Assembly (NCBI RefSeq): GCF_000264455.2
Contig: NC_017956.1
Coordinates: 1,037,501 to 1,101,500 of the forward strand
Length of the DNA stretch: 64,000 nt
Direction of reading: 5' to 3'
From: Tistrella mobilis KA081020-065
GTDB lineage: Bacteria > Pseudomonadota > Alphaproteobacteria > Tistrellales > Tistrellaceae
This document shows positions 3,960 through 14,044 of the stretch, piece by piece. The stretch's first letter is position 1, and every line of letters begins with the position of its first letter. Position numbers and translations under genes: made by a program. The notes under the pieces are model-generated. The model made no database searches. It was given only the letters and a program-made list of their open reading frames with translations, and was not told where the DNA came from.

Positions 3960-4090
3960 CCCAGCCGCCATTGCGGCGGCGGCCAAGGGCGCGGCAGCGC
4001 CCGCCCGGCGAGGGACTAACAACCACTCCCAGCCGCCATTGCGGCGGCGGCCAAGGGCGCGGCAGCGCCCGCCCGGCGAGGGGCTGACAA
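3960..4090 (+). repeat. 68-bp tandem duplication in the aminotransferase leader
   Basis: The 55 bp at 3960-4014 are repeated exactly at 4028-4082, with similarity continuing for several more bases (period 68). Each copy can form two hairpins: GCCGC-CATT-GCGGC and GGGCGC-GGCA-GCGCCC. The second copy ends about 20 bp before the start codon, close to the ribosome-binding site AGGAG at 4096. There is no T tract. The predicted leader would carry four GC-rich hairpins, which could affect translation or RNA stability. Confidence 0.85.
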
Positions 4091-9863: not shown

Positions 9864-11126
9864 TCAGATCCGGAACCGGTCGAGCGTCAACCCCTCGGTC
9901 GAAATCTCGGGCGTGCGGCCCGAGACCAGATCGGCGACCAGGCGGCCCGATCCGGCGGCCATCGTCCAGCCCAGCGTGCCATGGCCGGTGTTGAGGAACA
10001 GGTTGCGGAAGCGGGTCGGGCCGATCACCGGCACGCCGTCGGGGCTGGCCGGCCTGAGCCCGCACCAGTAGTCCGGCACCGCGTCGCGCGCAATCTCAGG
10101 GAACACCGCCTGCACGCCCTTCAGGATCGCCTGCGAGCGTACCCGGTTGAGGCTGAGATCATAGCCGGCAAGCTCTGCCGTGCCGGCGGCGCGCAGCCGG
10201 TCGCCCAGCCGGGTGAAGACGATCCGGCGGGCATCGTCGGTCAGGCTGCCCTGGGGCGCGTCGTTGCGGCCGGCGACGTTCAGCGTGACCGAATAGCCCT
10301 TCAGCGGATAGACCGGCAGGCGGATGCCGATCCGGCGCAGCAGCAGCGGCGTGAAACTGCCCATGGCGGCGACCAGGGCATCGGCCTCGATCCGCGTGCC
10401 CATGTCGAGCCGCACGGCGGTGACCCGGTCGCCGCTGGTTTCCAGGGCCTCGACACTCCGGCCATAGAGCAGGCGGCCGCCTTTGGCCGCGACCCTCTCG
10501 GCCAGGTTTGCGGTGAACAGCCGGGCATCGCCCTGCTCGTCGATCGGGCTCAACACGCCGCCGGCCAGCCGGGTCTGCACCGGTGCCAGGGCGGGTTCAT
10601 GGGCGACGCACTCGGCCGGGCTCATCACCCGGTGGGGGATGCCGAGCGTGCGGTCCAGCTCGGCCGCATGGCGGCCGGCGGCGTCGAAGCCCTTCGGGTC
10701 TTCGAAAACATGCAGGATGCCGCGGCTCGCCTCGTCATACGCGAAGCCTTCGGCGGCGCGGATCGCCTTCATGCCGTCGAGGGAATAGCGGGCCAGCCGC
10801 CAGGCGCGTTCGGTGTTGCGGCGCGCGGCCGCCCGGGTGCAATTGGCCAGGAACCGCAGGCCGAAGCGCCAGAGATCCGGATCGGCGCGCCAGCGGAACA
10901 CCAGCGGCGCATCCTCGCGCAGCAGCCAGCCGGGCAACGATTTCAGCGTGGCGGGGTTGGCCCAGGGCTCGGCATGGCTGGGGCTGATCTGGCCGCCATT
11001 GGCGAAGCTCGTTTCCAGCCCGGGGCCCATCCTGCGGTCTATGACCGTGACCTCGTGCCCCTGATCGGCAAGGTGCCAGGCGGTGGCGATGCCCACCACC
11101 CCGGCGCCCAGAACCACCACCTTCAC
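9864..11126 (-). CDS. dadA: D-amino acid dehydrogenase, FAD-dependent
   Basis: The 420-residue flavoprotein oxidises D-amino acids, typically D-alanine, to keto acids and passes electrons to the respiratory chain. The start is a GTG giving VKVVVLGAGVVGIATAW, the FAD-binding GxGxxG motif, with GGAGGGG 6 bp upstream. Family landmarks are SFANGGQISPSHAEPWANP near residue 45 and the C-terminal FAD contact PDYWCGLRPASPDGVPVIG. It may complement alanine dehydrogenase nearby, but no alanine racemase is seen. Its stop is 12 bp from the stop of the convergent kinase-like gene. Confidence 0.93.
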   Translation of the reverse strand: MKVVVLGAGVVGIATAWHLADQGHEVTVIDRRMGPGLETSFANGGQISPSHAEPWANPATLKSLPGWLLREDAPLVFRWRADPDLWRFGLRFLANCTRAAARRNTERAWRLARYSLDGMKAIRAAEGFAYDEASRGILHVFEDPKGFDAAGRHAAELDRTLGIPHRVMSPAECVAHEPALAPVQTRLAGGVLSPIDEQGDARLFTANLAERVAAKGGRLLYGRSVEALETSGDRVTAVRLDMGTRIEADALVAAMGSFTPLLLRRIGIRLPVYPLKGYSVTLNVAGRNDAPQGSLTDDARRIVFTRLGDRLRAAGTAELAGYDLSLNRVRSQAILKGVQAVFPEIARDAVPDYWCGLRPASPDGVPVIGPTRFRNLFLNTGHGTLGWTMAAGSGRLVADLVSGRTPEISTEGLTLDRFRI

Positions 11127-11287
11127 GAACGCACCCCTCCGATGGCAGCGGATATGCCGGCAGACCTGCGACCGCGCGCCGCCTTGTCCGGCGCAGGCGC
11201 CCCAGGATATAAGCCCCTCTGGCGTTCGGGCCAAGCTTTCCGCCAGGATCGACCCATGATACGGACCTCAACCGGAAGGGAAGACGG

Positions 11288-11689
11288 ATGACGCGGACGA
11301 TCTGGATCATCGGCACGCTGGGCGCGCTGATCGCCGTGGCGGCAGGCGCCTTCGCCACCCACGGGCTGGAACAGGCAGGCGATCTGCACACCGCGCAGAT
11401 CGTGCGCACCGGCGCGCTTTACGGCCTGGTCCATTCCCTGGTGCTGATGCTGCTCGCGGTGCTGCGGCCGCTGGTCGATCGCGGGCTGGTGGCGCTCGAC
11501 GTCCGGTTGCTGATGGCCGCGGCCGGCGCGCTGGCGGCCGGCGCGATCCTGTTTCCCGGCAGCCTGTATCTCTATGCCGCCACCGGCTGGCGGCCGCTGG
11601 TCTTCGTGACGCCGGTGGGCGGCACCGCCTTTCTGATCGGCTGGGTGCTGGCGACGCTGGCGGCGCTGAAGCGGCCCCGGAAGCGCTGA
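11288..11689 (+). CDS. DUF423 small membrane protein (YgdD-like)
   Basis: The 133 residues contain four hydrophobic segments. The opening GTLGALIAVAAGAFATHGLE, followed by a short helix with TGALYGLVHSLVL, is the DUF423 signature. The C-terminus is basic (KRPRKR). It sits in the inner membrane; the function of the family is unknown. It diverges from dadA and stands just before the 32-bp repeat pair. Confidence 0.9.
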   Translation: MTRTIWIIGTLGALIAVAAGAFATHGLEQAGDLHTAQIVRTGALYGLVHSLVLMLLAVLRPLVDRGLVALDVRLLMAAAGALAAGAILFPGSLYLYAATGWRPLVFVTPVGGTAFLIGWVLATLAALKRPRKR

Positions 11690-11691
11690 TC

Positions 11692-11771
11692 CATCGACGC
11701 CGATATATCGATATCGATGTATCGGGCGCGGGGTAACTTCATCGACGTCGATGTATCGATGTCGATGCATC
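11692..11771. repeat. Two 32-bp ATCGAT-rich direct repeats
   Basis: Copy A (11692-11723) and copy B (11740-11771) start 48 bp apart and match at 28 of 32 positions. All four differences are transitions. Each copy begins CATCGACG and contains TATCGAT flanked by further (A/G)TCGATG units, so the sequence is partly palindromic. The pair starts 2 bp after the DUF423 stop and ends 155 bp before the MoxR gene. It could be an operator or a non-coding repeat; no coding potential is evident. Confidence 0.8.
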
Positions 11772-11926
11772 CGATCGACCTTCGGGCGTGCGCCCGTGTG
11801 TGCGATGCAACTTTTGCGCGGTCGAACATCGCTTGAAATTTTGCTTAATGGTTTAATGCCTTGAACCCGTCGGTCGCGATGCTACCCTCTGGCCAGAGAT
11901 GAGGCTTTCACGGGACCAGACGGGCC

Positions 11927-12808
<882 letters not shown>

Positions 12809-12865: not shown

Positions 12866-14044
12866 ATGCTGATCGATTTCTTCTTCAAGCTTCGCGAGGC
12901 GAAGCTGCCGGTCACGATCAAGGAATATCTGGTCCTGATCGAGGGCATGAAGGCCGGGCTCGCCCAGTTCTCCCCTGAGGAGTTCTACTATCTCGCCCGC
13001 ACCTCGCTGGTGAAGAACGAGAAGCATTTCGACCGCTTCGACCAGGTCTTCGCCGCCTATTACAAGGGCGCCCAGGCGCATTTCGCGGCCATCGAGGGGC
13101 AGATCCCCGAGGAATGGCTGCGCAAGCTGGCCGAAAAGCATCTCACCCCCGAAGAGATGGCCGAGATCGAGGCCCTGGGCGGCTGGGAAAAGCTGATGGA
13201 GACGCTGAAGCAGCGTCTGGAAGAGCAGAAGGGGCGCCATCAGGGCGGCAATAAATGGATCGGCACGGCCGGTACCAGCCCCTTCGGCGCCTATGGCTAC
13301 AACCCGGAAGGCGTGCGCATCGGCCAGGACCGGTCGCGCCACCGCCGGGCGGTGAAGGTCTGGGATCAGCGGGCTTTCAAGAATTACGACGACGATGTCG
13401 AGCTGGGCACGCGCAACATCAAGGTGGCGCTGAAGCGGCTGCGCGCCTTCGTGCGCGAAGGCTCCGATCTGGAACTGGATCTCGACGACACGATCCGCTC
13501 CACGGCGCGCAATGCCGGCTGGCTGGACCTGAAGCTGGTGCCGGAAAAGCGCAACAAGGTGAAGGTGCTGCTGTTCCTGGATGTCGGCGGATCGATGGAC
13601 GATCACGTCAAGATCTGCGAAGAGCTGTTCAGTGCCGCGCGCACCGAGCTGAAGCACCTGGAATATTATTACTTCCACAACTTCATTTACGAGAATGTGT
13701 GGAAGGACAATTATCGCCGCTTCTCGGAACGCACGCCGACCATGGACGTGCTGAACAAGTTCGGCCCCGACTACAAGGTGATCTTCGTCGGCGATGCGAC
13801 CATGAGCGCCTATGAGATCGTGATGCCGGGCGGATCGGTCGAACACTGGAACGAGGAATCGGGCCAGGTCTGGCTGAAGCGCTTCACCGACCATTTCCCG
13901 AAGATGGTCTGGCTGAACCCCGAACCCCAGCAGCGCTGGCGCTATACCGAAAGCGCCAAGATCACCCAGAAGCTGATGGAGGACCGGATGTATCCGCTGA
14001 CCCTGCGCGGCCTGGACGAGGCGTTGCGCTATCTGAGCCGTTGA
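12866..14044 (+). CDS. VWA-domain protein (CoxE-like), MoxR partner
   Basis: This 392-residue protein begins FFFKLREAKLPVTIKEYLVL, typical of the CoxE-like VWA family that partners MoxR ATPases. The C-terminal VWA domain starts near residue 232 with LLFLDVGGSMDDHV. The metal-site motif is DVGGS rather than DxSxS, so the first serine is replaced by glycine; the later D of VGDATMSAYE is present. Residues 85-130 are highly charged and helical. It follows the MoxR gene closely on the same strand. Role inferred: substrate-binding adaptor of the ATPase. Confidence 0.9.
   Translation: MLIDFFFKLREAKLPVTIKEYLVLIEGMKAGLAQFSPEEFYYLARTSLVKNEKHFDRFDQVFAAYYKGAQAHFAAIEGQIPEEWLRKLAEKHLTPEEMAEIEALGGWEKLMETLKQRLEEQKGRHQGGNKWIGTAGTSPFGAYGYNPEGVRIGQDRSRHRRAVKVWDQRAFKNYDDDVELGTRNIKVALKRLRAFVREGSDLELDLDDTIRSTARNAGWLDLKLVPEKRNKVKVLLFLDVGGSMDDHVKICEELFSAARTELKHLEYYYFHNFIYENVWKDNYRRFSERTPTMDVLNKFGPDYKVIFVGDATMSAYEIVMPGGSVEHWNEESGQVWLKRFTDHFPKMVWLNPEPQQRWRYTESAKITQKLMEDRMYPLTLRGLDEALRYLSR

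Follow-up and report, generated by a model that had tools for sequence, protein, structure and literature searches.

Palindrome arrays shared within Tistrella as candidate binding sites for a dimeric protein, with one array upstream of a MoxR/VWA gene pair

Introduction

Dimeric bacterial regulators of the TetR, LacI, MarR and GntR types act on palindromic operator arrays. Palindromic sites are also used by SlmA, Noc and ParB, which are genome-wide organizing proteins. Rickettsia palindromic elements (RPEs) are found also in reading frames, free of stop codons. REP elements have been reported to lower translation when a stop codon is closer than 16 nt (PMC12306157).

Here we analyze clustered palindromes in the genome of Tistrella mobilis KA081020-065, starting from a 64,000-nt stretch of DNA (the window) in which a sequence-only reading had pointed to two repeats ahead of a MoxR gene. 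Our preferred reading, held with about as much confidence as doubt, is that these palindromes form lineage-specific arrays of binding sites for a putative dimeric DNA-binding protein, one of which is located upstream of the MoxR/VWA genes.

An array of four palindromes follows the DUF423 gene

The array in the window, array A, lies at the beginning of the 237 nt that separate the DUF423 stop codon (11689) from the MoxR start codon (11927), leaving 157 nt between its end and that codon. The features of this region, in window coordinates, are as follows.

11288–11689, + strand: upstream gene, DUF423 protein of 133 aa (PF04241, E 5.3e-18)
11690–11707, no strand: palindrome 1, TCCATCGACGCCGATATA, two mismatches to TRYATCGAYRTCGATRYA; its first base directly follows the DUF423 stop codon
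11692–11723, + strand: first 32-mer, CATCGACGCCGATATATCGATATCGATGTATC
11704–11721, no strand: palindrome 2, TATATCGATATCGATGTA, exact
11724–11739, + strand: poorly conserved spacer of 16 nt separating the 32-mers; site of one extra 14-bp unit in the conspecific genome G058
11738–11755, no strand: palindrome 3, TTCATCGACGTCGATGTA, one mismatch
11740–11771, + strand: second 32-mer, CATCGACGTCGATGTATCGATGTCGATGCATC; TRF period 14
11752–11769, no strand: palindrome 4, TGTATCGATGTCGATGCA, exact
11770–11926, + strand: remainder of the gap before MoxR, without a sigma-70 consensus or terminator-like site; the part 11773–11926 has the same sequence in G058 and differs in the congener G001 by 10 transitions and no transversions
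11927–12808, + strand: MoxR-type AAA ATPase, first gene downstream of array A (AAA_5, PF07728; the name MoxR is given from sequence)
12866–14044, + strand: VWA/CoxE-like protein (PF05762)

The two 32-mers are repeated with a period of 48 and are identical at 28 of 32 bases, and the four mismatches between them (C/T, A/G, A/G and T/C) are all transitions, in agreement with the sequence-only reading. Each 32-mer amounts to about two overlapping 18-bp palindromes placed 14 bp apart, so that the four palindromes are spaced by 14, 34 and 14.

The repetition in array A is beyond chance. With up to one mismatch allowed, the 14-mer ATCGAYRYCGATRY has 16 matches in the window, compared with 1.11 expected in shuffles, and seven of the 16 fall in the 80-bp stretch. 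Plain ATCGAT occurs 24 times in the window against 23.9 expected and is not enriched; the term "ATCGAT-rich", applied earlier to the repeats, thus holds locally but not for the window as a whole.

No sigma-70 consensus was found at 11500–12100, and no terminator-like site at array A, the three such sites that were found all lying inside the DUF423 gene. Covariance models applied to 11000–12600 returned no Rfam family match at E ≤ 1, which led us to reject a known RNA family. Elsewhere in the window, the top-scoring tandem repeat is a 68-bp unit present 1.9 times with 96% matches (3960–4090).

The palindrome recurs as a small genomic family

As a long pattern (31 positions, up to three mismatches), the repeat has a single match in the genome, at array A. 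The 18-bp palindrome TRYATCGAYRTCGATRYA has 10 exact copies in the 6.5-Mb genome and 8 more with one mismatch. The expected numbers are 0.007 and 0.29 under a Markov model that was trained on the window sequence and captures codon runs such as IDVD incompletely. A reversed-pattern control proved weak, as TAG is part of the reversed motif; it was replaced by the Markov expectation together with counts in other genomes. The 18 places (≤1 mismatch) group into nine loci distributed over four replicons, the chromosome among them, and six of these loci are clusters of two to four copies.

Locus A, window array, 11690–11769: four palindromes
Locus B, C1:1415269–1415332: three copies
Locus C, C1:2336882–2337015: two copies
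Locus D, C1:3082550: one copy and further half-sites
Locus E, C1:3738129: one copy, in coding sequence
Locus F, C2:175175–175254: two copies
Locus G, C3:354927–355001: three copies, inside a nonribosomal peptide synthetase (NRPS) condensation domain
Locus H, C4:1115416–1115475: two copies
Ninth locus, C4:941144: single one-mismatch site

The genome-wide search for the 32-mer proposed earlier therefore gives a divided answer, with the long pattern confined to one locus but its palindrome found at a few others. Likewise, the concern that this might be a dispersed repeat is borne out to the extent that the palindrome does recur, but as a small, motif-like family rather than a mass repeat. At locus E and at the first site of C, the DNA looks like ordinary coding sequence, and these matches may be due to chance. 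Array spacings outside A differ widely (20, 26, 27, 30, 42, 62 and 116). At least one cluster is located on each large contig, four in the source genome and three in the congener G001, whose C2 cluster consists of one exact and one two-mismatch copy.

Information content ends 12 bp from the dyad, a limit that points to a dimer site rather than to a longer mobile element. It was calculated from seven loci (all but E and C4:941144) with 16 sites, of which those in array A overlap one another. The family consensus is about AGATRYATCGAYRTCGATRYATCT, a palindromic site of 18 to 24 bp.

The arrays are shared by genus members

We compared the source genome (G000) with two genus members, the conspecific G058 and the congener G001. 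Array A is syntenic in both, with one extra 14-bp unit in G058, confirming that the repeats are real and conserved. Loci A, B, C, D, E and H align in all three genomes. Locus G aligns in G000 and G001, and has no match among the exact 16-mers of G058. Spacings in G001 are unchanged for B (20/26), C (116), G (27/30) and H (42), and the half-to-half distance in A is off by 1 bp. The gene cluster containing array F has no close match in G058 or G001.

One more locus, J, carries four copies in G058 and two copies in G001, whereas a search of G000 at up to two mismatches found none. It comprises L194:2426–2803 of G058 and a homologous region in L212 of G001, with a 125-aa ORF that in G058 carries four imperfect ID(V/A)DASVSAAAVTFRxPGC-like repeats. 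Each repeat begins at a palindrome copy (0–2 mismatches), and a GNAT gene and a parDE pair lie nearby. Locus J could be a gene for a repeat-containing peptide.

Among 385 class genomes sampled, the exact 16-mer has 11, 10 and 14 copies in the three genus members and 0–4 in the other 382. We also inspected 103 MoxR-relative loci (23 and 80 from two sets, the weaker L031–L035 excluded), with flanks of 1.5–4 kb, some ended by contig ends. The 18-mer (≤2 mismatches) is present at two of these, in both cases as a single copy with no other inside 300 bp even when four mismatches are allowed, and tblastn found no DUF423 relative at any of the 103. A scan for upstream palindromes at 22 of the 23 loci of the first set yielded one other palindrome, of 20 bp. 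With neither a DUF423 relative nor clustered palindromes at these loci, a MoxR-linked element common to other taxa was rejected. The 291-bp region has no match in the plasmid collection, three viral contigs each contain one exact 20-mer, and the motifs ATCGACGTCGAT and GCATCGATGTCGATGC have no printed occurrence in the literature searched.

Genes next to the arrays

At five of the nine loci (A, B, C, F and H), a predicted stop codon is 0–15 nt away or is overlapped by the array. Locus B lies between the stop of an AMP-binding ligase gene and the start of a gene for a MarR–enoyl-CoA hydratase protein. At locus C, whose neighbors are PhnF and cyclophilin genes, the first site is inside the gene of the PhnF regulator and the second overlaps its stop codon. 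Locus D follows ATP synthase b genes and precedes a gene for a SpoIIE-type phosphatase, F is located between a biotin carboxylase gene and an ORF whose translation reads as BCCP-like, and H between the genes of two Liv/Urt-type permeases. No common pathway was found among the neighbors, which include CoA ligase, MarR–enoyl-CoA hydratase, PhnF, cyclophilin, ATP synthase b, SpoIIE, acyl-CoA carboxylase, permeases and NRPS.

Several of these genes have features of their own. In L178:1210–2451 (− strand), a MarR winged-helix domain is fused to enoyl-CoA hydratase; the gene adjoins that of the AMP-binding CoA ligase, and three palindromes lie just before its start codon. In L182:1950–2600 (− strand), the biotin carboxylase and the BCCP-like ORF share one frame, parted by a stop codon and the two array F palindromes, and the pair looks like a split carboxylase subunit. 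Upstream of the Cache-HAMP-SpoIIE gene (L180:2500–2640), direct repeats of a half-site of the form RTCRATRTAATG surround the palindrome in each of the three genomes. In the C-domain alignment, the NRPS has a variable loop that is about seven residues longer than in the best solved relative; on this evidence, an insertion into the NRPS was not accepted.

RNA hairpins are the main rival

The main rival to the binding-site reading is that the palindromes are REP-like intercistronic elements, acting as RNA hairpins after a stop codon and altering translation, decay or read-through of the upstream gene. We regard this as possible, though clearly less probable. The stop-codon proximity of arrays A, B, C, F and H speaks in its favor and resembles that of REP elements (PMC12306157). 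Predicted folding is also strong in A (z −2.6; −3.2, −4.0 and −7.1 in the three genomes) and in B (−3.2 to −5.1). It is, however, weak in F (−1.2), and in two of three genomes for H (−1.9 and −1.3) and D (+0.5 and −1.4, with −2.7 in the third).

The sequence-only reading had suggested that transition-only differences might be chance or reflect G–U-tolerant RNA pairing. Intergenic DNA outside the motif shows 38 transitions and 8 transversions, similar to the 9:1 at the R/Y positions of the motif (p = 1). A transition-only difference is thus the local norm, since the flanking intergenic DNA is equally transition-rich. The gene-strand pairs R2–Y17 and Y3–R16 of A, B, D, F and H (72 pairs, a rough count because the rows are related sequences) comprise 33 Watson–Crick, 16 G–U, 13 A–C and 10 other combinations. 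G–U is hardly above A–C, although pairing at the RNA level would be expected to favor G–U, so RNA pairing is not needed, and we rejected the transition-only pattern as a sign of it.

Further points stand against REP-like hairpins. Array A has no terminator-like site and no Rfam match, and several gaps are too short for an array to be far from a stop codon in any case. Instead of many extragenic copies, there are 18 places at only nine loci, some inside ORFs, including three copies within the NRPS ORF. The RAYT domain (Y1 transposase, PF01797) is absent in G000 and G058, and contig C3 of G001 contains a single partial match to it.

Fixed bases change slowly and R/Y positions frequently

We counted changed bases at the G000 intergenic sites of A, B and D. 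This count does not include F, which has no ortholog, J, which is part of a small ORF, H, where a start codon is overlapped, or the coding arrays C, E and G. Against G001, 2 of 92 fixed bases, 10 of 44 R/Y bases and 46 of 346 other intergenic bases are changed (p = 0.0012 for fixed bases versus the rest, 0.0002 for fixed versus R/Y bases and 0.11 for R/Y bases versus the rest). In the comparison with G058, the closer relative, the corresponding counts are 1 of 92, 7 of 44 and 9 of 346, with fixed bases not significantly different from the rest (p = 0.70) and R/Y bases above it (p = 0.0008). A wider count that adds H and coding flanks gives 3/128 fixed, 12/62 R/Y and 134/1722 flank changes against G001, and 3/128, 7/62 and 87/1722 against G058.

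The coding group (C, E, G and J) shows no such contrast against G001 (fixed 11/108, R/Y 8/56, flank 203/1784), with 9 of the 11 fixed changes coming from locus J; for the coding loci against G058, the counts are 1/36, 0/18 and 55/893. At third-codon positions of the NRPS copies, 0 of 12 fixed bases are changed, compared with 212 of 1076 elsewhere in the gene (p = 0.14, a suggestive difference only); of the R/Y bases, 3 of 6 are changed. Since fixed CpG bases stay while the central Y–R step changes, deamination alone is no explanation. Gene conversion among copies could keep the fixed bases uniform. From these comparisons, the palindrome arrays are apparently kept by selection.

The counts bear on a neutral short tandem repeat, in which 14-bp units would arise by slippage, palindromy would be a by-product and copies would be spread by rare recombination or insertion. 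The 14-bp period of array A, its one extra unit in G058, the variable copy number at locus J (four in G058, two in G001) and the lack, in both G058 and G001, of a close match to the gene cluster around array F are all compatible with this origin. We nevertheless consider it unlikely: relative to G001, though not significantly relative to G058, fixed bases resist change compared with their surroundings while R/Y bases change, and the spacings of the other arrays indicate that the 14-bp period is not general.

Candidate binding-site arrays

We therefore return to binding-site arrays for a putative dimeric protein as the preferred reading. Each palindrome would bind one homodimer of this putative protein, clustering would allow cooperative binding, and occupancy of array A would influence transcription of the MoxR–VWA operon. 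The binder could be a local repressor or activator, or a global nucleoid-type factor. An operator array would be expected to have a dyad-symmetric conserved site with specific bases constrained, and this is what the comparison with G001 shows, with no significant effect against G058. It would also be expected upstream of a coherent gene set, and the neighbors here are unrelated; because of this, the global nucleoid-type factor is favored. The location of several arrays between co-directional genes or inside genes would likewise be unusual for operators. The lack of a sigma-70 consensus at 11500–12100 and the incomplete sharing of arrays F, G and J among the three genomes also count against this reading.

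A more specific proposal is that the clusters are sites of an undescribed, genus-specific genome-organizing protein, placed where they are tolerated (gene ends, operon gaps and the NRPS loop), with the DNA kept even where it is coding. We consider this version improbable as it stands. Least likely of all are operators of one specific local regulator, for which the best candidate is the MarR–enoyl-CoA hydratase fusion: the gap directly before its Shine-Dalgarno-like AGGAG and its ATG is filled by three palindromes, a placement typical of autoregulation, and genes for acyl-CoA carboxylase and branched-chain-type permeases lie next to some of the other arrays, but the PhnF, SpoIIE, NRPS and MoxR neighbors do not fit one pathway.

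With this analysis, an isolated oddity becomes a testable object: a motif of 18 to 24 bp that has a small number of listed sites in three genomes and shows evidence of constraint. Should the motif be bound by a protein, the genus has an undescribed regulator or chromosome-organizing factor with sites that are directly recognizable in the sequence. If there is no binder, the arrays are a compact example of conserved intercistronic palindromes.

Comparison with known systems

The palindromes described here share with RPEs their occurrence inside reading frames, and differ in that RPEs are much longer. Like enterobacterial REP/BIME elements, they are palindromic, clustered and often located within 15 nt after a stop codon; unlike these, they occupy nine loci and not hundreds, occur also in ORFs, and come without a RAYT in G000 and G058. 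The sites of SlmA, Noc and ParB are similar in that few palindromic sites are distributed over large replicons and are tolerated inside genes, whereas the tight clusters are particular to the present arrays. In comparison with operator arrays of dimeric regulators, the loci here have no common pathway, and several copies lie between co-directional genes or in ORFs, but they share with them a dyad-symmetric site of 18–24 bp, a Y–R central step, conserved half-sites and clusters of two to four.
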